Positions 661-28,476 of a DNA stretch of 41,875 nucleotides are shown piece after piece. The position numbers and the translations under genes were made by a program. The stretch is taken from positions 1-41,875 of the forward strand of contig JAKSNK010000014.1 in NCBI GenBank assembly GCA_024399835.1. The letters are read 5' to 3'. The stretch is from Paludibacteraceae bacterium. GTDB taxonomy: Bacteria; Bacteroidota; Bacteroidia; Bacteroidales; Paludibacteraceae. A model generated the notes under the pieces. That model was not told the origin of the DNA, did not search any database, and saw only the letters and a program-made list of their open reading frames with translations. Each line of letters starts with the position of its first letter. Within the stretch, counting starts at the first letter, position 1.

Positions 661-735
661 TCCTCTAACTGTAGGCGCTTGCGCTGTCCTCTAAACTGTA
701 GGCAGCCCTTCTGCCGTCCTCTAATTCTCGGGTCT
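661..735. repeat. Imperfect direct repeats of 26-30 bp, each with a small hairpin
   Basis: TCCTCTAACTGTAGGC at 661, TCCTCTAAACTGTAGGC at 687 and TCCTCTAATTCTCGGG at 717 begin three successive copies. The first two are followed by different short palindromes (GCGC-TT-GCGC and GGCAG-CCCTT-CTGCC), so the stem is kept while its sequence changes. The third copy runs into the headed 11-bp repeat. Function unknown. Confidence 0.6.
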
Positions 736-771
736 TTGCCGACAGTCGACCGACGGTCGACCGACGGTCGA
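730..771 (+). repeat. Headed 11-bp tandem repeat, copy 1
   Basis: The 14-nt head GGGTCTTTGCCGAC (730-743) leads into units of the form GGTCGACCGAC that repeat every 11 bp up to 771. The same head followed by the same unit family occurs at 878-919, and in reverse orientation inside the GT9 gene (27881-27957). Confidence 0.85.
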
Positions 772-805
772 ATATAAGATGCGTATGAGTTTGCCGAGTG
801 GTTTT

Positions 806-970
806 GCTTCCTTTTCGCTTCCTTTTCGCTGTCGTTTCGCTGTCGTTTTGGGTATGTGTCTTGTATGTGTCTTTTGTGGGTCTTTGCCGACGGCGGACCG
901 ACGGCGAACCGACGGCGAAAGCAGAGGTTAAGCATGGGTCGGGCATAGGTCGGACATCGGTCAATCATAC
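806..970. repeat. Fifteen-unit 11-bp array whose unit changes along its length
   Basis: Cutting every 11 bases from 806 gives 15 units without a phase slip. They begin as GCTTCCTTTTC (twice), GCTGTCGTTTC, GCTGTCGTTTT, continue as GGGTATGTGTC, TTGTATGTGTC, TTTTGTGGGTC, then TTTGCCGACGG, CGGACCGACGG, CGAACCGACGG, and end as GTCGGGCATAG, GTCGGACATCG, GTCAATCATAC. Neighbouring units resemble each other while distant ones do not. The second headed repeat (head 878-891) lies in phase inside it. Confidence 0.85.
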
Positions 971-984
971 CCTCTGCTTTTTTT
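918..984. terminator. Long-loop inverted repeat with T run, possible terminator
   Basis: AAAGCAGAGG (918-927) pairs perfectly with CCTCTGCTTT (971-980), and four more T residues follow. The 43-nt loop consists of units of the 11-bp array. It resembles a rho-independent terminator, but the loop is unusually long and the transcript it would end is unknown. Confidence 0.45.
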
Positions 985-1095
985 GCAGAAGTTGAAAACT
1001 TCCGTAATTATCTAATTATCAGTTGTGAAAGAACTGTTGGAAATGTTTATATCGTGTTGAAAACTATGTTTATAACTCTCATAACTCATTATATA

Positions 1096-1127
1096 TTTGG
1101 AAGTCTCAATTATTTTTCGTATCTTTG
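1096..1127 (+). promoter_or_regulatory. Bacteroidota primary-sigma promoter for the dcw operon
   Basis: A -33 element TTTG (1096-1099) and a -7 element TATCTTTG (1120-1127) are separated by exactly 20 bases, matching the known Bacteroidota consensus. Only 18 bases separate the -7 element from the rsmH ATG, so the leader should be about a dozen nucleotides. Confidence 0.88.
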
Positions 1128-1145
1128 CAACGCTAATTGGTATAT

Positions 1146-2057
1146 ATGCACGAAACCTATCACATACCGGCATTATTGGACCCCACTATTCGCGGTTTGA
1201 ACATCCGCCCCGATGGCATTTATGTGGATGTCACTTTCGGCGGTGGAGGGCATAGTCGTGCCATTATGCGGCAATTGGGTGACAAGGGGCAGTTGTATTC
1301 GTTTGACCGGGATGCCGATGCGTATGCCAACGAGCAGCAACGGGGCGAATTGATTAACGACCCGCGGTGGCACTTCGTGCACGGCAATTTCAGGTACTTG
1401 TCCAACTTCATGGACTACTGCGGAATTACGCAAATAGATGGACTGTTGGCAGATTTAGGCGTCAGTTTTCATCATTTTGACGATGCACAACGGGGGTTTA
1501 GTTTCCGGTTTGAAGGACCGCTGGATATGCGTATGAATCAGCAAGCCGGTATGACCGCTGCCGATATCGTGAATACCTATAGCGAAGAATCCTTGGCGAA
1601 TGTGTTGTATTTGTATGGCGAACTGAAGAACTCGCGCAGTATAGCGCATCGCATTGTGGCGGAACGGCAACGGGAACCCGTTTTGCGGACGGAGCAGTTG
1701 GCACACCTGTTGGGGGATGACAAGAAAACGCTCACACTGGTCTTTCAGGCGTTGCGTATTGAGGTCAATGACGAATTGGCGGCACTCCGTCAGTTGCTGA
1801 CTTCTGCGGTCGGATTGCTTGCCCCTGCGGGTAGAATAGCCATACTGACTTACCATTCGCTGGAGGACCGCATTGTGAAGAATTTCTTCCGCTCCGGGCA
1901 GATAGACGGACAGATACAAAAAGACTTTTATGGCAATGTCGTCACCCCGTTTCGTGTTATTGAGAAAGGTTTAGTACCCACTACGGAAGAAGTCAATCAG
2001 AATCCCCGTGCACGCTCAGCCAAATTGAGAGTTGCCGAAAAAATAGTATCGATATGA
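1146..2057 (+). CDS. rsmH: 16S rRNA (cytosine(1402)-N(4))-methyltransferase RsmH (MraW)
   Basis: The 303-residue protein methylates N4 of C1402 in 16S rRNA using S-adenosylmethionine. The N-terminus MHETYHIPALL matches the usual start of the family. The SAM-binding loop FGGGGHS is at residues 31-37, and the later segments GLLADLGVSFHHFD and YHSLEDRIVKNFF are characteristic. I chose ATG 1146 over the in-frame TTG at 1137 because the protein family begins here and the TTG falls at the predicted transcription start. The stop overlaps the start of the next gene in ATGA. It is the first gene of the dcw operon; no mraZ lies in front. Confidence 0.97.
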   Translation: MHETYHIPALLDPTIRGLNIRPDGIYVDVTFGGGGHSRAIMRQLGDKGQLYSFDRDADAYANEQQRGELINDPRWHFVHGNFRYLSNFMDYCGITQIDGLLADLGVSFHHFDDAQRGFSFRFEGPLDMRMNQQAGMTAADIVNTYSEESLANVLYLYGELKNSRSIAHRIVAERQREPVLRTEQLAHLLGDDKKTLTLVFQALRIEVNDELAALRQLLTSAVGLLAPAGRIAILTYHSLEDRIVKNFFRSGQIDGQIQKDFYGNVVTPFRVIEKGLVPTTEEVNQNPRARSAKLRVAEKIVSI

Positions 2058-2374
2058 GTGAAAAAAAACGAATTACATTTAAGGAGGTCCTGAGCGGCGA
2101 TATCCTGCTGAGGGAGTGGGTTCGAGACCAATTCCCCCTGTTGTGGCTGATTGTCGGCTTAATCTGTATCTATATTCTTTTGGGCTATCAGGCACAGGCA
2201 CAACAAAAGCACCTGACGGACTTGCAAAAAGAACTGCAGGATAAGCACTATAAACAGCTGTTTATTGAGTCCGAAGTAACCCAACGCACACGGCAGTCGC
2301 AAATCGTGCAGGAACTGGAGCAGCGTGGCAGTACAATCAAGGAGAATAAAAAACCTGTTATAAATATTCCGTAA
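2054..2374 (+). CDS. FtsL-like cell-division membrane protein
   Basis: This 106-residue bitopic protein has a short basic cytoplasmic N-terminus, one membrane helix at about residues 28-46 (LLWLIVGLICIYILLGY), and a periplasmic heptad-like helix rich in Q, L and K (about 48-90). Size, topology and position between rsmH and ftsI are those of FtsL, which in the divisome bridges FtsQ/FtsB to FtsW/FtsI. Sequence conservation in the family is low, so the call rests on topology and context. It overlaps both neighbours (ATGA with rsmH, TAATG with ftsI), indicating translational coupling. Confidence 0.8.
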   Translation: MSEKKRITFKEVLSGDILLREWVRDQFPLLWLIVGLICIYILLGYQAQAQQKHLTDLQKELQDKHYKQLFIESEVTQRTRQSQIVQELEQRGSTIKENKKPVINIP

Positions 2375-4224
2375 TGATAACAAAAAAAGATCAAATAGTT
2401 ATTCGGTTTGCAGTTATTTTCATAACTCTTACTGTAGCTGCTTCCGTCGTCATTATCTCCAAGATTTGGAAAGTGCAGCACAATGAGAATGAAGAACTCA
2501 AATGGAGCAAAATCGAGAAAAGCCAGGTTCGCACCAATCAGCCCGTTGAGCCCATGCGTGGAAATATCTACGATGCCAATAGGCAGTTGTTGGCAAGCAG
2601 TTTGCCCGAATACATCGTGCGTATGGATACGCGTGTAGAGGCATTGCATTTGAAAAATGACTCGTTATTTAAGCGATACATCGACTCTATTTCCATCGGG
2701 TTAAGCAATATCATAGGCGACAAATCTCCGCAGGAATATAAGAAGATAATCAAAACTGCATTCTATAGCGAGCGCGAAGAAGTCAAATACCACGATATCC
2801 GTTTGCACAAAGGGCGAATCAATTATTTGCAAAAGAAGGAAATTGAGCAATTGCCGTTGATTAATAGGGGTGTCTATAAGAGTGGTGTTTACTTTACGGA
2901 ACAACATGTGCGAGTCAATCCTTATGGCGATTTGGGGCGTCGCGCCATTGGTACTACTGATAAGGAATCCGGTCAGGGTGACTTGGGATTGGAATACAGT
3001 TTTAATGATGTCTTGACGGGTACTCCCGGTGTTGCCACTTATATGCGCGTCGCAGGGAGACAGTCGATGGTACCTGTGAAGGACGCCATTGACGGATGCG
3101 ATGTGATTACTACCCTCGATGTGAACCTGATGGATATATGCGAAAAGACATTACGCAGTAAAATCGAGGCAGTGGAGGGCGATTGGGGATGTGTCATCCT
3201 TATGGAAGCGCACTCCGGTCAAATCAAGGCAATGGTCAATCTGGACCGCCAGTCCGACGGCACTTATGCCGAAACCAACGATCATACCATCAAGCGTGTC
3301 GAACCGGGTTCGACCTTTAAGACCATCGCCATGATGGCTGCCATTGACGAAGGACGAATACAGATAGACGACACTTTCCGCATTACGGTCAAACCGTGGG
3401 AATACCACTCCTTGAAACATACCGATTCGCACAAAAAAGATACTGTCCTGACGGCGCGCAGCGCATTGGCTATCAGTAGCAATATCGCATTGGCAAAGAT
3501 GATAGTTAAGGCATATCATGGCGATCCGGAACCGTTTATACAAAAGTTGGAGAAGATGGGACTGACACAGGGTTTCTATTCGGAATTGCCCAAGGCGCAT
3601 AAGCCGAAGATTGCCGTTCCTGACAACAAAGTGACTATCAGCAAGATGGCATACGGATATTCGGTTGAATTGTCTCCCTTGCAGATTATGGCATTCTACA
3701 ACGGAATTGCCAATGACGGTAAAATGATTCGCCCCTATTTGGTCAGTCGGATAGAGCGTGACGGAGTTGTATTGCAGGAGTTTGATACCGAAACAATCAG
3801 CACATTGTGCAGCGCTTCTACACTGCGGGACATTCGTGGCGGTTTGCACGATGTGGTATGGGACAATAACCTGCCCGGAACGGCTGCTCCTTTTGCCGGA
3901 CATAACAAGGCGCAAAGCGAACTCGTACATATAGCCGGTAAGACGGGAACTGCCCAATTGCTGCTCAAAAACGAGTTCAACCGATGGGAATATCAGTCCC
4001 GCAAACACCGTATGACTTTCGTGGGATATTTCCCCGAAGAGGACCCGCAATATACCTGTATTTGCATGATTGAGCATCCTAAAAGCATGGTGAACGGTGT
4101 TACGCGTGGCTACGATGCAGGGCGTGACTGTGGTGAAGTGGTGCGTAAGATTGCCGAGCAGACCATCGCATACAGTTGGGTGTATGAAATAGAGAACGGA
4201 CAAAAAATATTCAAGAAGAGATGA
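2374..4224 (+). CDS. ftsI: Peptidoglycan D,D-transpeptidase FtsI (class B penicillin-binding protein)
   Basis: The 616-residue protein cross-links septal peptidoglycan in the periplasm. A single membrane anchor spans about residues 10-30. The dimerisation domain begins with MRGNIYDANRQLLA near residue 60. The transpeptidase domain carries the three active-site motifs: STFK (S313-K316, nucleophile S313), SSN (368-370) and KTGT (523-526). The sequence ends about 90 residues after KTG with no clear PASTA domain, which as I recall is present in many Bacteroidota FtsI proteins. It overlaps murE by the ATGA arrangement and would act with FtsW, encoded further along the operon. Confidence 0.96.
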   Translation: MITKKDQIVIRFAVIFITLTVAASVVIISKIWKVQHNENEELKWSKIEKSQVRTNQPVEPMRGNIYDANRQLLASSLPEYIVRMDTRVEALHLKNDSLFKRYIDSISIGLSNIIGDKSPQEYKKIIKTAFYSEREEVKYHDIRLHKGRINYLQKKEIEQLPLINRGVYKSGVYFTEQHVRVNPYGDLGRRAIGTTDKESGQGDLGLEYSFNDVLTGTPGVATYMRVAGRQSMVPVKDAIDGCDVITTLDVNLMDICEKTLRSKIEAVEGDWGCVILMEAHSGQIKAMVNLDRQSDGTYAETNDHTIKRVEPGSTFKTIAMMAAIDEGRIQIDDTFRITVKPWEYHSLKHTDSHKKDTVLTARSALAISSNIALAKMIVKAYHGDPEPFIQKLEKMGLTQGFYSELPKAHKPKIAVPDNKVTISKMAYGYSVELSPLQIMAFYNGIANDGKMIRPYLVSRIERDGVVLQEFDTETISTLCSASTLRDIRGGLHDVVWDNNLPGTAAPFAGHNKAQSELVHIAGKTGTAQLLLKNEFNRWEYQSRKHRMTFVGYFPEEDPQYTCICMIEHPKSMVNGVTRGYDAGRDCGEVVRKIAEQTIAYSWVYEIENGQKIFKKR

Positions 4225-5657
4225 TACTTACAACCCTTTTACAAGGACTTCCCGTGCAAGTGTTCGGACCAACCGACATAGATATCACGGGTATTCAGTT
4301 TGACTCTCGCAAAGTGCAAACGGGTAATTTATTTGTGGCACAGGTGGGCACTACTATGGACGGACACAATTTTGTGGACAACTGTATTGCACAGGGTGCC
4401 ACCGCTATCGTTATCAGCAATCCTGCCTATCGGCGCGAAGGTGTGACAACAATTATAGCCGACAATACGGACTATATTCTCGGCATGATGGCACATCGTT
4501 GGTTCGGTTGCCCCTCGGAGCATCTTACCTTGGTCGGCGTAACGGGCACCAACGGCAAGACGACCATTGCCACCTTGCTCTATAAGATGACACGGGCACT
4601 CGGGCACAAAGCAGGACTGCTATCTACGGTGGTTAATTACATCGACGACCAATCTGTTCCCTCTACTCATACTACCCCTGATGCGATAGAACTGAACGGG
4701 CTGCTGCGGCAGATGGTGGATGCTGGATGCGAATATGCTTTTATGGAGGTCAGCAGCCACTCGATTGCCCAAGAGCGCATTGCCGGACTGCACTTCAACG
4801 GTGCTCTCTTTACCAACCTCACGCGCGACCACTTGGATTATCATAAGACTTTTGATAATTACCGCGATACGAAAAAGCGACTCTTTGACAATCTCGCGAA
4901 AGGGGCTTTTGCTGTCACCAACAAGGACGACAAGAACGGCTTGGTCATGACACAAAATACCCCTGCTGAGGTAAAAACCTATTCGACACGCACTTTGGCG
5001 GACTTTAAGGCAAGTATATTGGAAGAGGGCTTTGACGGCATGTTGCTCTCTGTCAATCGGCAGGAAGTTTTTGTTCCTTTGGTAGGCAGGTTTAACGCCA
5101 GCAATATATTGGCTATTTATAGTGCGGCTATTTGTTTAGGATTTGACAATGCGGAAGTTCTACGCGTGCTGTCTACCTTGACCGCCGTGAATGGGCGGTT
5201 TGAGACTATTCATAGTGAGCATAAGGGATGGACTGCCATTGTAGATTACGCCCATACGCCCGATGCGGTGGATAATGTCATTCAAACAATCAACGAAATC
5301 CGCAAGGGCAAACTGATTACCGTAGTGGGCTGTGGTGGCAATCGGGACAAGGGCAAACGCCCGATGATGGCACAGATAGCCAAGCATGGTAGCGACCAAC
5401 TCATTCTTACCAGCGATAACCCGCGCGACGAAGAGCCGGCAGATATCCTACGGGACATGGCTGCGGGACTGACCGAAGAGGAGTTGCACCAAACGCTGAT
5501 TATTGAAGACCGCGCTGCGGCTATTCAAACCGCCTGCACCCTGGCGCAAGCCGACGATGTCATTCTCATTGCCGGCAAAGGGCATGAAGATTATCAGATT
5601 ATCCGTGGGGTCAAACACCACTTTGATGACCACGAGATGGTTCGTAAATTTTGTTAA
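4221..5657 (+). CDS. murE: UDP-N-acetylmuramoyl-tripeptide synthetase MurE, meso-diaminopimelate type
   Basis: The enzyme adds the third stem-peptide residue to UDP-MurNAc-L-Ala-D-Glu in the cytoplasm with ATP. The 478-residue sequence has the Mur-ligase ATP loop GVTGTNGKTT (106-115), the HTTPD segment that binds the UDP-sugar region, and DNPR at 399-402. In characterised MurE enzymes DNPR marks meso-diaminopimelate rather than lysine as substrate, so the peptidoglycan is predicted to be of the DAP type. Its start overlaps the ftsI stop, and it ends 12 bases before mraY. Confidence 0.97.
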   Translation: MILTTLLQGLPVQVFGPTDIDITGIQFDSRKVQTGNLFVAQVGTTMDGHNFVDNCIAQGATAIVISNPAYRREGVTTIIADNTDYILGMMAHRWFGCPSEHLTLVGVTGTNGKTTIATLLYKMTRALGHKAGLLSTVVNYIDDQSVPSTHTTPDAIELNGLLRQMVDAGCEYAFMEVSSHSIAQERIAGLHFNGALFTNLTRDHLDYHKTFDNYRDTKKRLFDNLAKGAFAVTNKDDKNGLVMTQNTPAEVKTYSTRTLADFKASILEEGFDGMLLSVNRQEVFVPLVGRFNASNILAIYSAAICLGFDNAEVLRVLSTLTAVNGRFETIHSEHKGWTAIVDYAHTPDAVDNVIQTINEIRKGKLITVVGCGGNRDKGKRPMMAQIAKHGSDQLILTSDNPRDEEPADILRDMAAGLTEEELHQTLIIEDRAAAIQTACTLAQADDVILIAGKGHEDYQIIRGVKHHFDDHEMVRKFC

Positions 5658-5669
5658 TTAATTACTGCT

Positions 5670-6941
5670 ATGTTATATCAATTATTTTCTCAACTTAGTG
5701 ATTTTCCCGGCGCACGGCTTTTTACCTACATTTCTTTCCGTGCCATTGTTGCCAATGTGTTGGCTTTGTTGGTCAGTATTCATTTTGGACGCTATTTTAT
5801 AGGTCTGCTTAAGCGCAAACATATATCCGAAACGCAGCGCGATGTTAAACTGGATCCCTTCAATACAGAGAAAAAAGGTGTCCCCACAATGGGTGGCATC
5901 GTTATCATTGTCAGTATTCTGCTTCCGTGTCTGTTGATGGGCAATTTGAGCAATGTCTATATGTTGCTTATGCTGATTACCACGCTGTTGTTGGGCGCAC
6001 TGGGTTTTGCAGACGATTACATCAAGACCTTCCGCAAAAACAAGGCAGGAATCAACGGATGGGTTAAAATCGCCGGACAGGTGCTGTTGGGACTGATTGT
6101 CGGCTTGACATTGCGTTATAGTCCGATGGCAACCATGAACGAACGCGTAGATACGGTGATAGAAAACAATGTGACCGTCGTACATAAATCGCCCGAGGTC
6201 AAATCGACACGCACTACCATTCCTTTTGTCAAAAACCATAACTGCAACTATGCCGATATGTTCGCTTTCTTGGGCGAGGAAAATATGTATCGTGCAGGGT
6301 GGATTTTCTTTGTCATCCTGACTGTTCTGGTTGTTGCTGCTGTCAGCAACGGTGCCAACCTCAACGACGGTATGGACGGCATGTGTGCCGGCAATTCGGC
6401 GATTATAGGCGCGGCATTGATTATATTGGCATATATCAGCGGCAATGTGATTTTTGCAGACTATTTTGATGTGATGTACATCCCTGGCTCGGAAGAATTA
6501 GTAGTCTTCCTGAGTGCTTTTGTGGGGGCATTGGTCGGTTTCCTGTGGTGGAACGGTTTCCCTGCACAAATCTTCATGGGCGATACGGGTTCGCTGACCA
6601 TTGGCGGTATTATAGGTGTTTGTGCTGTGATTATACACAAGGAACTCCTGCTGCCTATCTTGTGCGGCATCTTCCTCTTGGAGAGTGTCAGCGTTATCTT
6701 GCAAACGCAAGTGTATAAGTTTATGAAGAAGAGAGGTGTCCACTACCGTATATTTAAGCGCACACCTTTCCATGACCAATTCCGTACATCCATGGAGAAG
6801 GCGCTCGAGAACGATCCCACTTGCAGTTTCCTTTTCAAGGGAAGTCCCGAACTGCACCACGAAACCAAGATTGTTCTTCGTTTCTGCATTGTTACACTCA
6901 TTTTGGCAGCAATCACCATTTTGACACTCAAGATACGATGA
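5670..6941 (+). CDS. mraY: Phospho-N-acetylmuramoyl-pentapeptide transferase MraY
   Basis: MraY transfers phospho-MurNAc-pentapeptide to undecaprenyl phosphate, making lipid I at the inner membrane. The 423-residue protein has about ten hydrophobic segments. Conserved catalytic and magnesium-binding motifs are visible: FADDYIK (D115, D116), NLNDGMDG (D233, D236) and the late HYRIFKRTPFH loop. A hydrophilic insertion of roughly 50 residues (about 150-200) follows the fifth helix; the Bacteroidota enzymes I recall are also longer than the roughly 360-residue E. coli enzyme. The stop overlaps the murD start (ATGA). Confidence 0.97.
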   Translation: MLYQLFSQLSDFPGARLFTYISFRAIVANVLALLVSIHFGRYFIGLLKRKHISETQRDVKLDPFNTEKKGVPTMGGIVIIVSILLPCLLMGNLSNVYMLLMLITTLLLGALGFADDYIKTFRKNKAGINGWVKIAGQVLLGLIVGLTLRYSPMATMNERVDTVIENNVTVVHKSPEVKSTRTTIPFVKNHNCNYADMFAFLGEENMYRAGWIFFVILTVLVVAAVSNGANLNDGMDGMCAGNSAIIGAALIILAYISGNVIFADYFDVMYIPGSEELVVFLSAFVGALVGFLWWNGFPAQIFMGDTGSLTIGGIIGVCAVIIHKELLLPILCGIFLLESVSVILQTQVYKFMKKRGVHYRIFKRTPFHDQFRTSMEKALENDPTCSFLFKGSPELHHETKIVLRFCIVTLILAAITILTLKIR

Positions 6942-8401
6942 AACGCATAGTTATTCTCGGGGCAGGCGAAAGTGGCGCAGGAGCGGCTATTCTCGCCCAA
7001 GAAAAAGGGTTTGATGTCTTTGTCTCCGATATGGGAGTTATCAAGCCCGAATATCAGGCGCTCCTGAACGAACATCATATTGCCTTCGAAAGCGGGCAGC
7101 ACACTCCGTCGCTCATTCTCAATGCCGACGAAGTCATCAAATCGCCGGGTATTCCGTTGAATGCGCCGCTTATTCAGCAATTGACTGCCCAACATACGCC
7201 GGTCATTTCCGAAATAGAGTTCGCGGCGCGTTATACTTCGGCTAAAATGATTTGCATTACCGGTTCAAACGGCAAGACCACTACCACCTCGCTCATTTAT
7301 GATATGTTGCGCCGTGCCGGACTGAATGTCGGCTTGGCGGGCAATATAGGCAACTCGTTGGCGTTGCAGGTGGCACACGAGCAGCACGATTATTATGTGA
7401 TTGAACTCAGTTCGTTCCAGTTGGACAACATGTACGATTTTCGTGCCGACATAGCCATTTTGCTCAATATAACGCCCGACCATTTGGATAGATACGACTT
7501 TCAGTTCCATAATTATGTCAATGCCAAGTTCCGTATTACCCAAAACCAAACTCCTAGGGATGCGTTTATCTATTGGGCAGAAGACCCTGTTATCAATCAG
7601 GAGATAGAGCGCATTCAGCCGCAAGCCACCCTTTATCCGTTTGGTTCCAATGCCCACAATGTGGCATATACCGATGGCAAGAACATGGTCGTTTCTGCGC
7701 GCCCTGCGTGCGAACCCTTGTCTGTCGGGCTGGACGAATTGTCCCTGCGGGGCAAGCACAACCAACTCAATTCGATGGCGGCATCGTTGGCGGCACAGAT
7801 CTTGCAAATCAAGAACGATGTTATTCGCGAGAGTTTGACTCAGTTTGCCGGAGTGGAGCATCGTCTGCAGTATGTCGCTACGATTCGTGGCGTGCGCTAT
7901 ATCAACGATAGCAAGGCAACCAATGTCAACTCCTGCTGGTACGCCCTTGAGTCCATGACAACGCCTACCGTGCTCATTTTAGGGGGCAAGGACAAGGGAA
8001 ATGACTATTCGGAGATTGACGATCTCGTCCGTCAGAAGTGCCGTGCACTCGTGTTCATGGGTTTGCACAACGAGAAACTGCATGAACATTTTGACCACCT
8101 TCTCGATTCCCCGACTCCCCGCTCCCCCGATTCCCCAATTCACCGGTCTCCCGATTCCCCGATTAACCGATTCTCCGATTCCCCGATTCATCGACTCCCC
8201 GATTCCCCGACTCCCCGATTCCCCGATTCCCCGATAAAAATCATCGATACCGACAATCTGCACGATGCCGTTCAGGCGTGCTACAATATAGCAGAGGATG
8301 GGGACACGGTGTTGTTGTCGCCCTGTTGCGCCAGTTTTGATTTGTTTCATAGTTACGAAGATCGTGGAGAGCAGTTTATGGCTGCCGTCAGAGCATTATA
8401 G
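6938..8401 (+). CDS. murD: UDP-N-acetylmuramoylalanine--D-glutamate ligase MurD, with repeat-encoded insertion
   Basis: MurD adds D-glutamate to UDP-MurNAc-L-alanine using ATP. The Rossmann-like N-terminus KRIVILGAGESG, the ATP loop GSNGKTTT (109-116), the central NITPDHLDRYD segment and the C-terminal LLSPCCASFDLF and EDRGEQF segments are all present. I chose ATG 6938 because it begins the family N-terminus and overlaps the mraY stop. The 487 residues exceed the usual 440-450 by about the length of a low-complexity insertion at residues 390-433. This is encoded by an 8-bp DNA repeat and lies in the C-terminal domain, between the strand-helix ending NEKLHEHFDHL and the strand IIDTDNL. Flanking domains are intact, so the enzyme is probably active. 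Confidence 0.96.
   Translation: MKRIVILGAGESGAGAAILAQEKGFDVFVSDMGVIKPEYQALLNEHHIAFESGQHTPSLILNADEVIKSPGIPLNAPLIQQLTAQHTPVISEIEFAARYTSAKMICITGSNGKTTTTSLIYDMLRRAGLNVGLAGNIGNSLALQVAHEQHDYYVIELSSFQLDNMYDFRADIAILLNITPDHLDRYDFQFHNYVNAKFRITQNQTPRDAFIYWAEDPVINQEIERIQPQATLYPFGSNAHNVAYTDGKNMVVSARPACEPLSVGLDELSLRGKHNQLNSMAASLAAQILQIKNDVIRESLTQFAGVEHRLQYVATIRGVRYINDSKATNVNSCWYALESMTTPTVLILGGKDKGNDYSEIDDLVRQKCRALVFMGLHNEKLHEHFDHLLDSPTPRSPDSPIHRSPDSPINRFSDSPIHRLPDSPTPRFPDSPIKIIDTDNLHDAVQACYNIAEDGDTVLLSPCCASFDLFHSYEDRGEQFMAAVRAL
8104..8231 (+). repeat. 8-bp tandem repeat (CGATTCCC type) inside murD, 16 units
   Basis: Sixteen 8-bp units run in perfect phase: mostly CGATTCCC and CGACTCCC, with variants CGATTAAC, CGATTCTC, CGATTCAT and CAATTCAC. 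The tract encodes an 8-residue cycle seen as PDSPIHRS, PDSPINRF, SDSPIHRL and PDSPTPRF. The single CGATTAAC unit contains TAA, but the murD frame reads it as ATT-AAC, so no stop arises. Confidence 0.95.
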
Positions 8402-8404
8402 AAT

Positions 8405-9664: not shown

Positions 9665-9678
9665 CTGATAGATATTTT

Positions 9679-10851
9679 ATGCGTTATTTGATTTCAGGCG
9701 GAGGCACAGGCGGACATATTTTCCCTGCTGTCAGTATCGCCAATGCACTCAAAGAATTAGACCCGCAAGCCGACATTCTCTTCGTCGGCGCGTTGGGTAG
9801 AATGGAAATGGAACGCGTGCCGCAGGCAGGATATAAGATTATCGGCTTGCCCGTGCGCGGTTTTAATCGTGCCCAACCGTGGAAGAACATCAGCGTGCTG
9901 TGGGACTTGTGGCGCTCTATGCGCATGGCTAAGAAGATTATTCGTGACTTCCGTCCGCAGGTTGGAGTAGGGGTTGGCGGATATGCCAGCGGAGCGGCGA
10001 TGAAAGTGGCTGCACAAATGGGTATTCCTATCTTGCTGCAGGAGCAAAACGGATTCGCCGGTGTCACCAACAAACTGCTCAAAGATGTTGCTGCCAAGAT
10101 TTGTGTGGCCTACGAGGGAATGGAACGCTTCTTCCCCAAGGAGAAAATCATTCTCACGGGCAATCCTGTCCGCCAAAACCTCACTATGGGCAAGCGCGTG
10201 GATAATGGGCGTAAGACGCTGCTCATTATTGGCGGCTCGTTGGGAGCACAAACGATTAACGACGCTATCAAGGCGGGTCTCCCTGCCCTCGCTGCGGCGA
10301 ATATAGATGTCGTTTGGCAAACCGGCAAATACTACTACGAAGATTGCCAATCCGCCCTCAATACCTTCCACTCCTCCGATTCCCCGACTCACCAACTTCC
10401 CGATTCACCGATTCCCCAACTCCCCGATTCCCCGACTCACCAACTCCCCGATTCCCCAATAGAGTGCCTCCCCTTCCTCTCCGACATGCCTGACCGCTAT
10501 GCACAGGCGGATTTGGTTATCTCGCGTGCCGGTGCTTCGTCTATTTCTGAGATTTGCCTGCTGGGCAAAGCAGCTATCTTAGTGCCTTCGCCCAATGTGG
10601 CAGAAGACCATCAGACGCACAATGCCATGGCACTTGTCAATAAGGACGCGGCTGTCCTCGTGCGCGATGCCGATGCCACAGGAGAGGTTACATACAATGG
10701 TATTCCTACCAGTACATTGGTACAGACGGCGCTTGAACTTATCGGTAATGACGAACGGCTTGCCACTTTGAGCAATAATGTGCGTCAATTGGCACAAACG
10801 GATTCGGCTAAGCGCATAGCAGAGGAAGTTATCGCCCTCGCCCGTAAATAG
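9679..10851 (+). CDS. murG: Undecaprenyldiphospho-muramoylpentapeptide beta-N-acetylglucosaminyltransferase MurG, with repeat-encoded insertion
   Basis: MurG adds GlcNAc to lipid I, giving lipid II on the cytoplasmic face of the inner membrane. The lipid-binding loop GGGTGGHIFPA (7-17), the QEQNGFAG segment, the second glycine-rich motif IIGGSLGAQTIN and the UDP-GlcNAc site RAGASSISE are present. At 390 residues it is about 25 longer than usual. The excess is a low-complexity stretch at about 234-261, encoded by ten 8-bp repeat units, between GKYYYEDCQSAL and LPFLSDMPDRYAQADLV in the C-terminal domain. MurG is the last dcw gene here; murC, ftsQ, ftsA and ftsZ do not follow. Confidence 0.96.
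   Translation: MRYLISGGGTGGHIFPAVSIANALKELDPQADILFVGALGRMEMERVPQAGYKIIGLPVRGFNRAQPWKNISVLWDLWRSMRMAKKIIRDFRPQVGVGVGGYASGAAMKVAAQMGIPILLQEQNGFAGVTNKLLKDVAAKICVAYEGMERFFPKEKIILTGNPVRQNLTMGKRVDNGRKTLLIIGGSLGAQTINDAIKAGLPALAAANIDVVWQTGKYYYEDCQSALNTFHSSDSPTHQLPDSPIPQLPDSPTHQLPDSPIECLPFLSDMPDRYAQADLVISRAGASSISEICLLGKAAILVPSPNVAEDHQTHNAMALVNKDAAVLVRDADATGEVTYNGIPTSTLVQTALELIGNDERLATLSNNVRQLAQTDSAKRIAEEVIALARK
10377..10456 (+). repeat. 8-bp tandem repeat inside murG, 10 units
   Basis: Ten 8-bp units in phase (CGATTCCC, CGACTCAC, CAACTTCC, CGATTCAC, CAACTCCC and repeats of these) encode the 8-residue cycle DSPTHQLP, DSPIPQLP, DSPTHQLP. The unit family and strand are the same as in murD. Confidence 0.95.
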
Positions 10852-10880
10852 TCATCAAACACTTCTAATTGTGTGGTTAT

Positions 10881-10924
10881 TACGGTACATATACGGTACA
10901 TATACGGTACATATACGGTACATA
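10881..10924. repeat. Four perfect copies of an 11-bp unit downstream of murG
   Basis: TACGGTACATA occurs four times head to tail without any mismatch, starting 30 bases after the murG stop. The unit holds the palindrome GGTACC-like core TACGGTACA only in part, and the sequence is unrelated to the GGTCGACCGAC family, but the 11-bp period is the same. The rest of the 283-bp gap holds a weak promoter and leader for the next gene. Confidence 0.92.
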
Positions 10925-10999
10925 ACCGAGATGTTACTGAGATTTTACACTGTACTGACCTGACCGTTATAAGGGTTCTGTGCACTCTTTTCGTCAATT

Positions 11000-11035
11000 T
11001 TTGCACATATATGTGCGCGAAAAGTTGTAATTTTG
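11000..11035 (+). promoter_or_regulatory. Probable promoter with a 14-bp palindrome in the spacer
   Basis: A -7 element TAATTTTG (11028-11035) is followed by C, as in Bacteroidota promoters. The best -33 candidate, TTTG at 11000-11003, lies 24 bases upstream, longer than the usual 19-21. The perfect palindrome GCACATATATGTGC (11003-11016) fills part of the spacer and could be an operator for a dimeric regulator. Confidence 0.5.
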
Positions 11036-11039
11036 CACC

Positions 11040-11058: not shown

Positions 11059-11134
11059 ACATACACGAATAAGTACGGTCTTTTACGAACCGACTTTTAA
11101 TATCAACAAAAACAACTAAAAAACAACAAACAAA

Positions 11135-13774: not shown

Positions 13775-13800
13775 TCCTTACAAACATACTCTTACAAAAA

Positions 13801-14861: not shown

Positions 14862-17800
14862 ATGAAGAAATTATATTACATATTGATTCTCTTGACATGG
14901 TTTGTCAGTGGTCCTGTTTGGGCGCAAGAGATAGGACCTGAATTACCACCCGAATTGCCACCCGAGGTAGAACCGGAACTCGTCAAGGAGTATGTCGCTT
15001 TAGACACCGCGAGAGTGGAAATGTACTACTCGCAGTTGCCTTATCTTTGGCGCAAATTCAGCATCATGGAAGAGGGCGTATATGTGGATACCGTGAAGGT
15101 GGAAGATCCTGCCGTCAAGGATACGATATACGCATTACAGTTCAATTACAAAAAAGAATATATCACTCGTGATACGGATGAGGTGGGCAAGTATCCCGCC
15201 GAATTGCCCTTTGAGTGGCATAATCAGTCTCTGACATCCAACGGCACTTATATCGACACGGTCAAAAGTGGTGATATTACGGTTGCCGATACCATATACA
15301 CACTCCGCCTGACCGTCAAGGAATATGTTGTCTTGCCGACCGAATACCTTGGCAAATACCCTACGGAAATGCCGATAGAGTGGCACAACCGGACAATTAC
15401 CGCATCCGGCACTTATATTGATACAATCAAGAATGCCGATTTTGCCATTGCCGATACGATTTATACATTACAACTGACGGTAAAAGAATATGTGACTCTT
15501 CCTGTTGAGAATGTCGGCAAGTATCCTACGGAAATGCCGATAGAGTGGCACAACCAAACGATTACCGCATCAGGCACTTATATTGATACAATCAAGAATG
15601 CCGATTTCGCCATTGCCGACACGGTTTATACCTTGCAGTTGACAGTCAAGGAATATGTGCATAAGACCACGCAAAGCGTGGGCATTTATCCCACACAAGT
15701 GCCGTATAGTTGGCGAGGAAAAGCATTCACCCAATCAGGCACCTATCAGGATACGGTTAAACTGCCTTCATTTGCAGACAAGGATACCATCTATTCGCTG
15801 AAATTGACTATTAAAGAGTATCTTGAGATTCCTAAGAAAACGGACAAATGGTGCTCGGATAACTTGCCGTATAAATGGAGAAACAAAAAATACTTTGTCA
15901 GCGGTACTTACCGGGATACGGTCAAGATGAAGAACTTCTCCGTCAAAGACACCGTTTATACATTGCATTTATCCATCGGTGAACCGTTTGAGCAACTGCA
16001 ACATTTCGAATTGTGTCCGGGTTCGTTTGTAACTTACCGTGGGCGCAAATATACCCAATCATGCTTGGATACGATTCCTTTGCCGTCGTCCAGTGGATGC
16101 GATAGTTTGATTATCGTGCAGGTGGTGGCTCATCCTAACTACTTGTTCACACAGGATGAGTCCTTGTGTCGTGGCGGTAAATTTACATGGGAGGGGCACT
16201 TGAACGATACCATTCTGTCCAAACCGGGAATTTATTACGACAGTTTGACTACTGTCAACGGGTGTGATAGTGTGTATGAACTGCGGTTGTTCGTCGGTGA
16301 ACCGGACTTGCACAAAGATACCGTTGCCGTGTGTGAGGAAAATTTACCGTATCTGTTTGGTGGACATTGGTTGACCGAGACAGGTGTGTATTTTGACACC
16401 ATCCAACGCGGAGCACACAAGTGCGACAGCATCATCCGCTTGGCATTCACGGTACTGAAAACGCAACGCGAAACCAAAACAATCACTTTCTGCGAAGGCA
16501 CAGGTGTGCGACATAACGGAGGAGAGATGTTTTACGATGCACGCACATTCATAGACACTACGCTCACACGCGAAGGTTGCTACCGTATAACGACCACCGT
16601 TTATACTCCCGGTCCGCAATATAAGATGGAAGACTGGAGACGCCGTCGTCCCGAAGAAACGAATTACGAGTGGCACGGACAGATTTATACCAAAGACGGC
16701 ACTTATCAGCAGAAACTAATCAACAAGGATGGATGTGACAGTATTTGGATACTGCACTTGGTTACGGAATACGATGTATATGTAGATTCTACCATGTGTC
16801 AGGGAGATACGCTCTTCTATAAAGGCGAGATTATTTCGGATAACAGGACCTTCACGGACACATTGGTCAGCAAAAACGGAGGCGACAGTATCGTTCACCT
16901 CAGTTTCCGTTTCCTGCCTCGCTACTACTTTATCGAAAAGACCTCTTTGTGCAGCAACGAGTATATACCGTGGCCAGGACACGAACATATCATTCTGCAC
17001 GAAGCAGGAGCGTACTTTGACCGCTACACCACTCAATATGGTTGCGACAGTATATACGAGATAGATGTTACCCAGCATAAGTCGTTCTCTAAACGGGAAT
17101 TTAAGGCGGTCAGTGCTTATCATGCTGTGGATTCATTGCCGTATATCTGGTACGACGGACACAATAAAAAGCATGAGTTGATGTTTGATACGCTCATCAT
17201 TGATACCTTGGGACACACTCCGCACGAAACGGCACAGGACTTCTGGGACGGCGATGTATGGCATCGTGCCTTGTCGGGCGGTTGTGACAGTACGGTAAGC
17301 ATTGAGTTCATGGTGGTTCGCAAGTACTCGTTTGACACCATTCCGTTATGTCCTAACGGGTATGTAATCGTAGATGGGCGCAAATATACTCAACCGGGAG
17401 ACTATGAACATTGGTTGCTCGCGTCACGGTACTCGTTGCACAAAGACAGTATTCACTATTTCCATATTTACGAGGCAGAGACTTACGATAGCGAGGCATA
17501 CGACGAAGATACGGTTTGCAGCAACGAATTGCCCTATCGATGGCATCATCGTGTATGCTATGCTGCCGGCGAATATGCCGATACGCTGCAAACGATATTC
17601 GGATGCGACAGCATTATTCACTTGCACCTGAAAGTCAAACCGGCATACTACAAAGAGGAATTGTATAAGATTTGCGCAGGTGACTCGTTGTGGATTCGTG
17701 GCAAGAACTACACGAAAACAGGTGTGTATTACGATAGTTTGTTTACCAAATCGGGGTGTGACAGCGTCTTCCAGATTACCATCAATGTGGTGCGCAGTTA

Positions 17801-21914: not shown

Positions 21915-21918
21915 GCGT

Positions 21919-23414: not shown

Positions 23415-23415
23415 T

Positions 23416-25269
23416 ATGAAACATTGGATTAGTATATTGTTGTTATGTATGGCTGCCATAGGTGCAGCTCAGGAGTTGCGTGTCCCTGCACGCCGTACTC
23501 CTGTTACGCGTCATCAGCCGAATGGGGATAGTGTGACGGTGCTGTTACGCGGAGACGAGTGGAAACATTGGATGATAACCTTGGACGGCTGGCAGGTACG
23601 CGAGAACGACAAGGGAGTAATCTGCTACTTGCAGCAACCCAAAAACCGATATAAAGACAACAATGCAACTGTCAGCAAAAAGCAGGCACATAATGCCGAG
23701 TTCCGTAAGTTCGGCGAGCGTTGTTGGTTGAAAAGACACGGTGTATTGAAAGAACCAATCCGGCAAGCACATCTGTGTCCTCCGCGTATAGCTCCTAATG
23801 CTACGGCAGCAGAGCGTGAGCAAATAATGCGCCATTTTGCACGCACGATGTCCGCTGCTACTGCTCAAACCGAGCAAATGATGGCAATCAATACACCACG
23901 AACCTTCCCTCGTGTGCCGGTGATATTGGTTAATTTCAAGAATTTGACTTTCAGTAAACCCGGTATTCGGGCACAGGTTGATAGTATGTTTAATGCCAAG
24001 AACTATTCTACATGGGTAGGAGAGTCCTATTCTGTTAGTCAGTACTTTGCAGAGCAGAGCGATGGACAATATACACCTATATTTGATATCTATGGTCCTG
24101 TTACCGTTGACTCGGTGTATAGTTATTATGGGAAGAATAAATCTTCTTCTACTAATTCAGATTCTCGTCCCGGTCATTTGGTAACGGAGGCATGCAAACT
24201 GATGAATGACTCATTGGATTTCAGCCAGTATGATTTGAACGGCGACAGCAAGGTTGACATGGTTTATATCATTTGCGCCGGTCCTCCAGCCAGTGATAGA
24301 GTTTATATCAGTAAATCATGGATAAAGAACCCCGATGATTTAATATGGCCGCATTATGGTACAATTTCTAAAATCGGTTGCGGTTCCAATCCAAAGAAGT
24401 TTGACAATACGACCGTTGAGGATTATGAAATCAGTTGTGAGTTGGACGGTTATTTCTCGTATAATGCGGAGGAGGATTTTGAGAACGAAGCCGTATTGGC
24501 AGGCATTGGTGTCCCTTGTCACGAGTTCAGTCACGGCATGGGATTACCCGACACCTATAAGACATGTGCGGGCAGTTGGAAAACATTGGGGATGTGGGAT
24601 CTGATGGACTACGGGTGCTATAATGGAGGTTCGTTTTATCCTGCAGGTTATACGGCTTATGAGCGCTGGTTTATGGGGTGGAAGACGCCTCGGCTGATTA
24701 ACAGTCCCGAAAATGTCACCCTTCAACCGTTGACTGCAGACAATAGTGAGAGTTTGCTGATTTCCACTACAGGCACGCACAACATGAATTGCCAAGCTCC
24801 TAATCCTGCGACTTTTTATCTGTTGGAGAACCGTCAGCAAGTGGGAAGTGATTACTATTTGGACGGACACGGATTGCTGATTTATAAGATTCAGTTCAAT
24901 TCCTCTAATTGGACTTACAACAATGTGAATAACACCTCCGATAAAATGGGAATAGACCTATTAGAAGCAGACGGCTTAGCCCCACAAGAAAATCCCGCTG
25001 ACCCCTACAATGGTTTTAATGGCAAAGAGGGCGATGCCTTTCCTACAGGTGCCACTTCGTGGACTTTGTTGCAGGACTATCCGATTACGGATATTACCGA
25101 GAATAACGGGGTCGTTTCGTTTAAGTTCAAGGGGGGTGCTACTACGGATTTGCCTACTATGCAACCGGCAGAAGGCGAGGATGGGCTGATGTTGCACAGG
25201 CACACCATTTATATCCGTAAGGGGAACAGATTATATAATGTATTAGGTCATGAAGTTCATTTCTTATAA
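23416..25269 (+). CDS. Secreted M6-family zinc metalloprotease
   Basis: This 617-residue protein begins with a signal peptide ([19 protein letters not shown]). The catalytic domain (about 150-450) contains [11 protein letters not shown], with zinc ligands H369 and H373, catalytic E370 and the downstream aspartate typical of M6 (immune inhibitor A-like) peptidases. A beta-rich region follows, and the end [19 protein letters not shown] belongs to the shared 21-column tail family. I prefer ATG 23416 over 23404 because it begins the signal peptide directly after the mlaF stop. The last 20 bases overlap the start of xth. The protein is presumably exported, perhaps to the surface; its substrate is unknown. 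Confidence 0.88.
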
Positions 25270-26011
25270 TGTCAACGGTATTCGTTCTGCGATAGACAAA
25301 GGTCTGTTGGAATGGTTGCAGCAAAGCGACCCGGATGTGTTTTGCATCCAAGAGTCAAAAGCGCAGCCGGAGCAGATAGACACGCGCGCCATGCGTGCGC
25401 TGGGGTACCATAGTTATATCCATTCGGCAGAGAAAAAAGGTTATTCGGGTGTGTGTATCTTCTCCAAACGCGAACCCGACTATGTGCAGGCAGGTATGGG
25501 TATTGACCGCTACGATAGTGAAGGGCGTGTTTTACGGGTGGACATCGGTAGTATATCGGTAGTAGATGTATATGTGCCAAGCGGCACAACAGGAGATGTG
25601 CGTCAGGAGTTTAAGATGGACTTTTTGGAAGTGTTCCTTAAATGGCTGTCGGAATTGAGAAAAGAGCGTCCGAATGTAATCGTCTGCGGCGATTTCAATA
25701 TCTGCCACAAACCCATTGACATTAATCACCCTGAGCGCCAAGTGGGTGTGAGCGGCTTTTTGCCGGAAGAGAGGGAATGGATGGACCGTTGGCAAGAGAG
25801 CGGAATGGTAGATACATTCCGGGAGTTTGACCAAAGTGCCGAGAAATACAGTTGGTGGAGTTACCGTTTCCGTGCGCGTGAACGCAATGCCGGCTGGCGA
25901 ATCGACTATTTTTGGGTGAGCGATACCCTAAAAGATAAATTAGATAATGCAACAATCATGACAGAGGCGGTGCATAGCGACCACTGCCCGGTATGCTTAT
26001 GGATACATTAA
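25250..26011 (+). CDS. xth: Exodeoxyribonuclease III (AP endonuclease family)
   Basis: The 253-residue enzyme cleaves DNA at abasic sites and removes 3' blocking groups in base-excision repair. The family motifs are in order: [14 protein letters not shown] (N7), IQESK with the metal ligand E35, [10 protein letters not shown], and the C-terminal SDHCPV with D244 and H245. Length is standard. The start lies 20 bases inside the M6 protease gene and the end overlaps lptB by 19 bases, so a repair gene is embedded among envelope genes, probably by translational coupling. Confidence 0.96.
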
Positions 26012-26760
26012 GAACAGAACATTTGATAAAGAAATATGGTAAGCGCACCGTAGTGAACGATGTGTCTATCCGATTGGAACAGGGAGAAATTGTGGGCTTG
26101 TTAGGTCCGAACGGGGCAGGCAAGACCACCACTTTCTATATGACCACGGGCTTGATTACCGCCAATAACGGCAAGATTTTCCTGAATGACCAGGATATAA
26201 CCCTGTTGCCAATGTACCAGCGCGCCAAGTTGGGCATCGGCTATTTGCCGCAGGAGGCAAGCGTATTCCGTAAACTGAGCGTGGAAGACAATATCCGCGC
26301 CGTATTGGAATTGACCAATTTCAGCAAGGAATATCAACAGCAAAAGTTGGAACAACTTATCAAAGAGTTTAACCTCAATCATGTCCGTCATAACTTAGGC
26401 GATCGCCTGAGTGGCGGAGAACGCCGCCGTACGGAGATTGCACGCTGTCTGGCAATTGAACCTAAGTTTGTGATGCTGGACGAACCCTTTGCCGGGGTCG
26501 ATCCGATTGCCGTGCAGGAGATACAGGATGTTGTATGGAGTTTGAAGGACAAGAATATCGGCATATTGATTACCGACCACAATGTGGACGAAACACTAAT
26601 GATTACCGACCGCGCTTACTTGCTGTTTGAGGGACGCATCCTGTTTCACGGTACGCCCGAAGAACTGGCAGCCAACCCGACCGTGAGAAAGAACTACTTA
26701 GGTCGCGACTTCGAACTCAAGAAAAAAAGCCGTCCCGAACAAACCGAACAACCCGATTAA
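25993..26760 (+). CDS. lptB: LPS export ABC transporter ATP-binding protein LptB
   Basis: LptB drives extraction of LPS from the inner membrane by LptFG. Walker A GPNGAGKT (38-45), the segment [20 protein letters not shown] typical of LptB, the signature [14 protein letters not shown] and Walker [14 protein letters not shown] are present; length is 255. ATG 25999 is an alternative start two codons in. The C-terminus (PEQTEQPD) and the stop codon are formed by the first unit of an 8-bp repeat that continues into the spacer. Confidence 0.96.
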
Positions 26761-26793
26761 CCGATTCACCAAATAACCGATTCACCAAATAAA
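26754..26793 (+). repeat. 8-bp tandem repeat spanning the lptB stop codon, 5 units
   Basis: Five exact 8-bp steps: CGATTAAC, CGATTCAC, CAAATAAC, CGATTCAC, CAAATAAA. The TAA of the first unit is the lptB stop. The tract occupies nearly all of the spacer before the DUF4254 gene at 26804 and is on the same strand as the murD and murG tracts. Confidence 0.93.
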
Positions 26794-26803
26794 CAATATA
26801 ATC

Positions 26804-27409
26804 ATGAACTTTGCAGAATTAAGTAACGGCATTTTCAGTCAAGCCGTTATCGATTATCACAAGACAGACAATGTAGATGCTCCCATTCACAACCCATACG
26901 CTGAAGGGACTATCGAAAATGATTTATACCAAAAGAACTGGATAGATGTTGTGCAATGGCACTTGGAAGATATTATCCGTGACCCGCACATCAATCCCGT
27001 GGATGCCTTGGCACTCAAGCGCCGAATAGACAAGAGTAACCAGGACAGAACGGATTTGGTAGAGCGTATCGATTCGTATTTTTGGGAGAAATACCACCAT
27101 GTTGCCCCGCAAGAGGGTGCGCGTATCAATACGGAGAGTCCTGCATGGGCTATTGACCGGCTGAGTATTCTGCATGTCAAGATTTATCACATGACCGAAC
27201 AGGTTGAGCGAGTGGATGTTACACCCGAACATCACGATAAATGCCTGCAAAAATTAGCCGTTCTGAAAGAGCAACTCTGCGATATGACTACGAGTATTTC
27301 GCAATTGCTGGACGACTATGCCAACGGCACTCGCGTGATGAAAGTGTACCGTCAGATGAAGATGTACAACGACCCGTCGTTGAATCCGGTATTATACGAA
27401 AAGAAGTGA
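26804..27409 (+). CDS. DUF4254 domain protein
   Basis: The 201-residue soluble, mostly helical protein matches the DUF4254 family from memory: an N-terminal NPYAEGTIENDLYQKNWIDV segment, then WHLEDIIRD, LKRRIDKSNQDR and RIDSYF. The family commonly lies directly before a family 9 glycosyltransferase in Bacteroidota, as here (GTGA overlap), so a role in LPS core assembly is likely but its reaction is not known. The spacer in front is filled by an 8-bp repeat. Confidence 0.88.
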   Translation: MNFAELSNGIFSQAVIDYHKTDNVDAPIHNPYAEGTIENDLYQKNWIDVVQWHLEDIIRDPHINPVDALALKRRIDKSNQDRTDLVERIDSYFWEKYHHVAPQEGARINTESPAWAIDRLSILHVKIYHMTEQVERVDVTPEHHDKCLQKLAVLKEQLCDMTTSISQLLDDYANGTRVMKVYRQMKMYNDPSLNPVLYEKK

Positions 27410-28476
27410 AAAAACTACTGGTCATACGCTTTTCCGCGCTGGGCGATGTGGCGATGGTAGTACCTGTCGTCAAGGCGTTAGCCGCTGCGTACCCCGAATG
27501 GGATATTACGATGCTCAGCAAAAAGCAATGTGCCCCCTTGTTTCAAAACCTGCCGGACAATGTGCATTTCTTTGGCGCAGATTTGAGGGGTAAACATAGC
27601 GGATTGGCAGGTTTGAACCGTCTGCTGCACGATTTGCGTTATCGCGAATTTGACGCGGTAGCGGATTTGCATGCCGTATTGCGTTCCCTCTACCTTCGTC
27701 ACCGCTGTCTGTGGCGCGGTAAACGCGTAGCACATATTCACAAAGACAGATACCAAAAGTGGTTGCTCGTTCGTCATTTTTATCAGTATAAGCACCCGTT
27801 GCAATCCACCGTTTCCCGCTATCGGACCGTATTCGAAGAACTGGGCTTTGAGGTACCTCTATGGGATAGCGATCCCATACTTCGCCGTCGGTTCGCCGTC
27901 GGCTCGCTGTCGGTCGACTGTCGGTCGACCGTCGGTCGACCGTCGGCAAAGACCCTTGACAAACACGGAATAGGTATAGCACCTTTTGCTGCCCACAAAG
28001 GTAAGATTTATCCAATAGGTAAAATGGAGGAAGTGGTAAGGCAGTTGAGCGAACAAATGCAGGCACGCGGAGAGACGATTTATCTGTTCGGCGCAGGTGA
28101 CAAAGAAAAAGAAGTGCTGCAAGAGTGGCAAGAGTTATATCCTAATGTGGAATGCCTGGTAGGCAAATACAGCATGGACGAAGAAATACGCTTTATGTCC
28201 CGATTGCGGCTGATGATAACGATGGACTCGGCAAATATGCACTTTGCATCGCTGGTTGGCACGCGCGTACTGAGTATATGGGGTGCAACCCACCCGTGGG
28301 CAGGATTCCTGGGCTTCGGGCAATCCGAAGACGACTGTATTCAATTGTCCATCCCCTGCCGTCCCTGCTCCATTTACGGCAATCGCCATTGTCGCTACGG
28401 CGATTATCCGTGTCTGAACATTGACCCCAAAACCATCGTGGAACGGGTAATGGGCGCATTAACCGTGAACGAATGA
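27406..28476 (+). CDS. Family 9 glycosyltransferase (ADP-heptose:LPS heptosyltransferase-like), with repeat-encoded insertion
   Basis: The 356-residue protein is a GT-B fold enzyme that adds a heptose-type sugar to the LPS core. The N-terminus KKLLVIRFSALGDVAMVVP is diagnostic. IGIAPFAAHKGKIYP opens the second domain, and MDSANMHFASLVGTRVLSIWG with HPWAGF contains the donor-binding site. I chose GTG 27406, which overlaps the DUF4254 stop (GTGA), because upstream codons lie inside that gene. Residues about 159-184 are encoded by an 11-bp DNA repeat and read FAVGSLSVDCRSTVGRPSAK. They fall between the two Rossmann domains, where a linker can tolerate extra length. Confidence 0.92.
   Translation: MKKLLVIRFSALGDVAMVVPVVKALAAAYPEWDITMLSKKQCAPLFQNLPDNVHFFGADLRGKHSGLAGLNRLLHDLRYREFDAVADLHAVLRSLYLRHRCLWRGKRVAHIHKDRYQKWLLVRHFYQYKHPLQSTVSRYRTVFEELGFEVPLWDSDPILRRRFAVGSLSVDCRSTVGRPSAKTLDKHGIGIAPFAAHKGKIYPIGKMEEVVRQLSEQMQARGETIYLFGAGDKEKEVLQEWQELYPNVECLVGKYSMDEEIRFMSRLRLMITMDSANMHFASLVGTRVLSIWGATHPWAGFLGFGQSEDDCIQLSIPCRPCSIYGNRHCRYGDYPCLNIDPKTIVERVMGALTVNE
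27881..27957 (-). repeat. Headed 11-bp tandem repeat inside the GT9 gene, copy 3 (reverse)
   Basis: Seven 11-bp units run in phase: TTCGCCGTCGG, TTCGCCGTCGG, CTCGCTGTCGG, TCGACTGTCGG, TCGACCGTCGG, TCGACCGTCGG, CAAAGACCCTT. Read on the minus strand the tract begins with the exact head GGGTCTTTGCCGAC (27955-27942). It then contains both the GGTCGACCGAC unit of copy 1 and the GGCGAACCGAC unit of copy 2. Confidence 0.93.

Follow-up and report, generated by a model that had tools for sequence, protein, structure and literature searches.

The 41,875-nt stretch analysed here (the window; contig JAKSNK010000014.1, positions 1 to 41,875, of assembly GCA_024399835.1 from a gut bacterium of the Paludibacteraceae) carries three copies of a short dispersed repeat, the CCGAC element. 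In this element, a head block is followed by a core made up of a few 11-bp units, nearly identical to each other, and then by a tail of two to three degenerate blocks in which a T is retained at one position. As the initial annotation had stated, three arrays are headed by the 14-nt motif GGGTCTTTGCCGAC, which lies at 730-743 (+), 878-891 (+) and 27942-27955 (-); no other site was found in the window when up to two mismatches were allowed. Shuffled windows held 0.26 such sites on average and none of 100 shuffles reached three, which, together with the reversed-motif controls given below, rules out a chance origin of the head and arrays. Unit type A is CCGACGGTCGA, with a variant a, CCGACAGTCGA; type B is CCGACGGCGRA (CCGACGGCGAA, with GGA and GAG forms), with a variant b starting CCGACAGCG. 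The third copy does contain both unit types, as noted earlier, and the open reading frame (ORF) that holds it, similar to glycosyltransferases of the GT9 family, has no frame break across the copy. The true start of this gene is probably nearer 27400. The features of the three copies are given in Table 1.

Table 1. Positions of the CCGAC element copies and associated features in the window
Feature	Position	Strand
Copy 1, head block (TCGGGTCTTTG)	728..738	+
Copy 1, core of three type-A 11-bp units (CCGACAGTCGA and two CCGACGGTCGA; code aAA)	739..771	+
Copy 1, tail of three degenerate 11-bp blocks, phase-9 T at 780, 791 and 802	772..804	+
Neighbouring 11-bp arrays with other unit sequences (TTTCGCTTCCT / TTTCGCTGTCG / GTATGTGTCTT)	801..878	+
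Copy 2, head block (GTGGGTCTTTG)	876..886	+
Copy 2, core of three type-B units (CCGACGGCGGA and two CCGACGGCGAA; code BBB)	887..919	+
Copy 2, tail of 11-bp blocks AGCAGAGGTTA AGCATGGGTCG GGCATAGGTCG GACATCGGTCA, phase-9 T in each	920..963	+
Copy 3, head block, within the GT9 gene	27947..27957	-
Copy 3, core of six units of both types (code AAabBB)	27881..27946	-
Copy 3, tail blocks	27848..27880	-
GT9/heptosyltransferase-like ORF with copy 3 in-frame	27241..28476	+
Second 11-bp family, (TACGGTACATA)4, T-phased tail, no GTGTCTTT in the preceding 44 bp	10882..10924	+

G000, the genome to which the window belongs (1.76 Mb in 46 contigs, 85% complete), contains 19 exact copies of the 14-nt head and none of the reversed motif. 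All 19 run on to complete one or more 11-bp units; heads as frequent without adjacent units as with them, which would have spoken against a headed element, were thus not seen genome-wide. Two broader patterns gave 78 (two-unit pattern) and 45 matches, against 0 and 2 for their reversed controls. Merged with the head search they define 42 array places, a census that misses arrays not matching the search patterns. A single-locus variable-number tandem repeat is ruled out by these 42 places, and the proposal holds across the genome in so far as the element is dispersed, has a head that recurs, varies in its number of units and is present in genes too. The head is less uniform than had been proposed. 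Around a consensus block (C)CG(G/T)GTCTTTG, the exact GGGTCTTTG precedes the first unit at only 18 of the 42 places, TTTG at 36, and TT at positions -3 and -2 at all 42, with a G at -9 at 40. The 11-bp register extends about two blocks upstream and three blocks downstream of the arrays. Downstream, a T occupies phase 9 of the register in 40, 38 and 27 of the 42 tails in blocks 1 to 3 (p 6e-20, 5e-17 and 1e-6 against a background of 0.28) and in 14 in block 4; over three blocks it averages 83%, the next most constant combination of base and phase reaching 58%. This T is present in genic and non-genic copies alike, and it recurs in two other genomes of the genus, G132 (29 arrays; 100, 90 and 52% in blocks 1 to 3) and G131 (7 arrays; 71, 71 and 57%). 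The defined far boundary that had been expected is not there: the T pattern fades about three blocks past the array, and some intergenic copies have longer ragged flanks in common, for example 151 bp at 95% or 184 bp at 78%.

The statement that the element lies once inside a coding gene is correct for the window and does not extend to the genome, where 18 of the 42 places are in-frame in long ORFs and over half lie outside them. The 18 do not include four open-frame arrays at C13 and C44, which were classed as leader because, by eye, the signal peptide begins after them. Sixteen of the 18 host ORFs have family matches: valS, an AmiC-like amidase, IspG, DapA, a RecD2-like helicase, a muramoyltetrapeptide carboxypeptidase, ObgE, a protein with Mur ligase domains (FolC by its match in the PDB), DsbD, PrmC, a non-ribosomal peptide synthetase, MnmA, IleS, PAP2, a serine dehydratase and GT9, whose match lies below the curated cut-offs. 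The other two are a polyprenyl synthase-like ORF, named by eye without a family scan, and one at C22 with no family match. Several of these genes we take to be usually essential. The arrays are read in all three sense frames, and the tested cores lack stop codons in all six, a property found also in 28% of random 11-mer arrays. Selection on frame through the number of units was not detected: hand-counted unit numbers are multiples of three at 12 of the 18 genic places, as against 12 of the 24 others (p 0.35). Compared with the best PDB match, 30 residues replace 5 in DapA, a net gain of 25 residues or 75 nt that equals a 9-nt head plus six 11-bp units; 54 replace 29 in FolC (net 25) and 34 replace 6 in IleS (net 28). 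In a structural model of GT9 (12-row alignment; mean predicted local distance difference test score, pLDDT, of 80), the insert corresponds to residues 155-181, a linker between two domains with pLDDT below 50; two short C-terminal stretches, 317-326 and 328-332, also score below 50. According to this model, the array in GT9 probably encodes a disordered loop.

Genic copies are mostly in the sense orientation (15 sense, 3 antisense; p 0.008). An automatic count gave 18 to 3 in G000, where it takes in the four arrays classed as leader but overlooks one genic place, and 16 to 3 in G132. Copies outside ORFs with a known left-hand gene mostly lie downstream of a gene on the same strand: 15 of 20 in G000, 8 of 9 in G132 (p 0.04 each). 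One of the 20 is the polyprenyl synthase place counted above as genic. Since the sites of G000 and G132 are partly orthologous, the orientation counts of the two genomes are not independent.

A second 11-bp family, built on TACGGTACATA (the TACGG family), was found at 14 places in G000 (28 matches to the unit pair, none to its reverse), none of them within an ORF of at least 250 codons. At seven of the 14, GTGTCTTT occurs in the 44 bp preceding the array, each time with its middle T at phase 9 and its end 1, 12 or 34 bp upstream, that is, in 11-bp steps; as some copies have longer flanks in common, these seven are not all independent. A T follows the arrays at phase 9 in 14, 12 and 5 of the 14 tails in blocks 1 to 3, exactly the position seen in the CCGAC family. 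Therefore neither the head nor the phased T is tied to the CCGAC unit. Conservation of this T in G000, G132 and the TACGG-family tails, and the sense orientation downstream of genes, would be compatible with a functional site, in DNA or RNA, that is read 11 nt at a time, acting for example in the nucleoid, in segregation or in mRNA control, with the T as a contact. We nevertheless consider such a role the least probable of the explanations discussed here. Of 178 genomes of the genus, no more than 10 contain a pattern of TTG plus two unit starts (43 matches in G000, 18 in G132, 5 in G131 and one or two in each of the other seven), and none of 112 genomes from 32 other genera of Paludibacteraceae does, which indicates that the element is not essential. 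Five stretches folded as RNA gave z scores of -0.5, +0.6, -3.0 (a composite array), -2.0 and -1.2 against shuffles, and a general RNA structure was rejected since folding was not consistently better. Moreover, because the copies are of common descent, part of the T conservation may be inherited. In the genome_contigs collection, which may omit records near the window, head plus unit matched four stretches. Two are from Paludibacteraceae metagenome-assembled genomes (MAGs) of horse feces; the other two, from Phycisphaerales and Planctomycetota, are single matches with no array. Three matches in viral contigs, in a search that took in neither phage nor plasmid collections, had no tandem array.

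We then compared 13 genic loci with six relatives, chosen since five hold at least one pattern match, by flank search followed by alignment; only loci with a flank match were compared. A CCGAC-family array occupies 8 of 11 such loci in G132, 2 of 6 in G131, 1 of 11 in G130, 1 of 8 each in G017 and G051, and none of 7 in G100, which does have an array of this family in GT9. Where the array is missing, other short repeats were in places seen by eye: an 11-bp GTACGGGAATA repeat in GT9 of G017 and G051, an 11-bp TAGGAACCTCA repeat in C22 of G130, and repeats of 7-8 bp in the carboxypeptidase and in ileS. Sequence comparison thus shows genic copies sitting in loops that in relatives contain no array, an array in rearranged form or a different short repeat. 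Of seven genomes, only G000 has the valS array, which aligns without gaps to the native codons of the six relatives. Alignment also shows that arrays differ between lineages in a genome-wide manner. In close composites, defined by at most one odd block between unit types, the order is A to B in 6 of 6 cases in G000 and B to A in 6 of 6 in G132 (p 0.002); with looser composites included the counts are 6 A to B and 3 B to A in G000, and 0 and 9 in G132 (p 0.009). G131 has one composite of each order. At folC, dapA and prmC the order is opposite between G000 and G132, and at the first two of these the two genomes have similar sequence following the array, so that the site is taken as common to both. 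We read these opposite orders as probable concerted evolution within genomes.

Short-period arrays of other kinds are frequent in the genus. Additional 11-bp families with unrelated units occur, and period-11 arrays are present in 9 of 12 sampled genomes. Over 26 stretches, the genus has 4.8 period-11 arrays per 100 kb, 9.2 of period 7, 2.0 of period 8 and 0.2 each of periods 10 and 13; period 7 being commoner, 11 is not the sole favoured period. Fifteen stretches from other genera gave 1.0 period-11 array per 100 kb, both arrays from one genome. The CCGAC flanking pattern is weak around 31 other 11-bp arrays: 10 score 5 of 6 for T phase (12% expected) and none scores 6, and their flanks match at lag 11 at 0.35 against 0.26-0.29. 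The head motif CCGKGWNTTT gave 15 matches in 20-kb samples, few beside 11-bp repeats, and its reverse gave 23. In the window, an 8-bp CGATTCCC-like array of about 16 units (8104-8235) is in-frame in a MurD-like ORF (6821-8401) and encodes SPD/SPI-rich repeats, and an 8/24-bp array (10370-10457) is in-frame in a MurG-like ORF (9679-10851) and encodes HQLPDSP repeats, both gene names being assigned by eye; period 8 may behave like period 11. Further arrays lie at a gene end (26735-26792; 9/8/16 bp) and between ORFs (34709-34749; 8 bp), and 165-bp direct repeats occupy 15351-15746 within a 2350-aa ORF. In stretch L258 (G082), three adjoining, distinct 11-bp arrays (GAGGGTACTGT, TGACACGGTAG and AGCGGGAAGAT; 381-571) resemble the mosaic at 739-963 of the window. 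Stretch L329 (G133) has ten period-7 arrays in a single 20 kb, which suggests that the preferred repeat period differs between species.

One could imagine that similar arrays arose repeatedly and independently in situ by slippage, if tandem duplications of 7, 8 and 11 bp are favoured. Nearly all tandem matches in the window are at lags of 8, 11 and their multiples, period-11 arrays with many unrelated units, and the still commoner period-7 arrays, are spread through the genus, and in relatives the corresponding loops of GT9 and C22 contain different 11-bp arrays. However, slippage cannot account for a head, units and tails that recur at 42 unrelated places, or for a composite order particular to each genome, and we regard it as an improbable origin; it probably still sets the number of units. 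A second possibility is a non-autonomous transposable element, similar to miniature inverted-repeat transposable elements (MITEs), Rickettsia palindromic elements (RPEs) or repetitive extragenic palindromic (REP) sequences, moved by an enzyme encoded elsewhere that recognizes the head and the T-phased tail as ends. Recurrence of head and tail at unrelated sites, presence or absence among related species, the RPE-like habit of lying in genes and the sense bias would all agree with it. Cleanly transposed copies should have fixed ends and, in many cases, inverted repeats and target duplications as well. Here, the longest inverted match between head and tail averages 4.2 nt over the 42 places, against 4.4 nt with partners swapped, so that neither the terminal inverted repeats of MITEs nor an RPE-type palindrome was found. 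No target-site duplication was seen by eye at the 13 genic loci, whose loops are hypervariable; length varies, flanks are ragged, and the valS array replaces native codons without a gap. G000 and G132, both incomplete MAGs (85% and 83%), have no match to Y1_Tnp (PF01797), the domain sought for a REP system with REP-associated tyrosine transposases (RAYTs), other transposase families not having been searched, nor to the reverse transcriptase RVT_1 (PF00078), sought for copying by retro-elements or of the diversity-generating retroelement type. Among nine genomes scanned, one was positive for each (G131 and G002, respectively). On balance we find transposition unlikely, though a more serious candidate than slippage.

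Variable length, ragged flanks, the lack of inverted ends and the replacement in valS, together with the inability of slippage to yield a common head, lead us to favour templated copying. We propose, with about even confidence for and against, an 11-bp-register repeat that is spread and homogenised by such copying and tolerated in disordered loops. Copying between sites would occur by ectopic gene conversion or by template switching at short matches, accompanied by slippage of units and without clean cut-and-paste insertion, and copies would persist because a core free of stop codons in six frames encodes hydrophilic, disordered loops. We regard the element as selfish or neutral, and not as a device of its host. 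Several points weigh against this proposal. Copying is inferred from one genome per species, with no event observed; valS is a single case, in which G000 is also 12 nt shorter than 4 of the 6 relatives at a point about 50 bp downstream of the array; the three looser B-to-A composites of G000 run against the prevailing order; the loops are too variable to exclude a target duplication or a further transposase; and both MAGs are incomplete. The phase-9 T, the same head beside an unrelated unit family and the sense bias of genic copies are not explained by gene conversion. As templated copying leaves these three features unaccounted for, we keep open a bolder and distinctly tentative reading, no better placed in our view than transposition. 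The CCGAC and TACGG families would form one modular class of genome-invading repeat, in which the head 11-mer is common to both, the 11-bp core can be exchanged and the tail has one T per 11 bp. A machine copying or reading DNA or RNA in 11-nt steps would put it in mostly sense-wise, replacing loops of conserved genes and re-homogenising the copies in each species.

The initial annotation knew of no named class of this form, and our text searches of the literature found none of exactly this form; there is, however, a close functional analogue in the RPEs. RPEs (eRPE-4, and also the Wolbachia elements, WPE) are described as short elements dispersed in dozens of copies, many of which lie in-frame within conserved genes, with orthologues carrying possibly differing inserts at the same site and inserts that are solvent-exposed (PMC10969869, PMC3767692, PMC2229807). 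The likeness to those descriptions lies in dispersed in-frame copies within unrelated conserved genes. The RPEs described there differ in being palindromes of about 100-150 bp with terminal inverted repeats, in Rickettsia and Wolbachia, whereas the present element has an 11-bp unit register, a modular head, a T-phased tail and variable length, in a family of Bacteroidales. PARCEL repeats are reported to be coding repeats in tandem that have dyad symmetry, are shuffled inside genomes and encode a 25-residue protein motif (PMC2996958). By that description they differ from the present element, which uses all three sense frames and lies for over half of its places outside long ORFs. Two further systems invite comparison. 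In REP sequences and bacterial interspersed mosaic elements (BIMEs) with RAYTs, a short head stands beside a GC-rich, partly palindromic core; the head adjoining a core is a likeness, but REPs are extragenic and the CCGAC element is also genic. Cyanobacterial short tandemly repeated repetitive (STRR) sequences are dispersed in and between genes, with heptanucleotide units instead of a period of 11, and we know of no common head or phased tail in them. By analogy, the CCGAC element appears to function like the RPEs without their inverted-repeat architecture or their taxon, and we file it among dispersed intragenic repeats with a new architecture. To our knowledge, no known system accounts for an 11-bp register with a phased T.

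If this is true, the element would be a further case, outside Rickettsiales, of repeat DNA lying in-frame in usually essential genes, and it suggests a genome-wide concerted evolution of intragenic repeats. Since the hosts include single, well-studied enzymes, tolerance, spread and function are directly testable. For annotation, the finding is a warning that hypervariable loops of proteins in this genus can be repeat filler.

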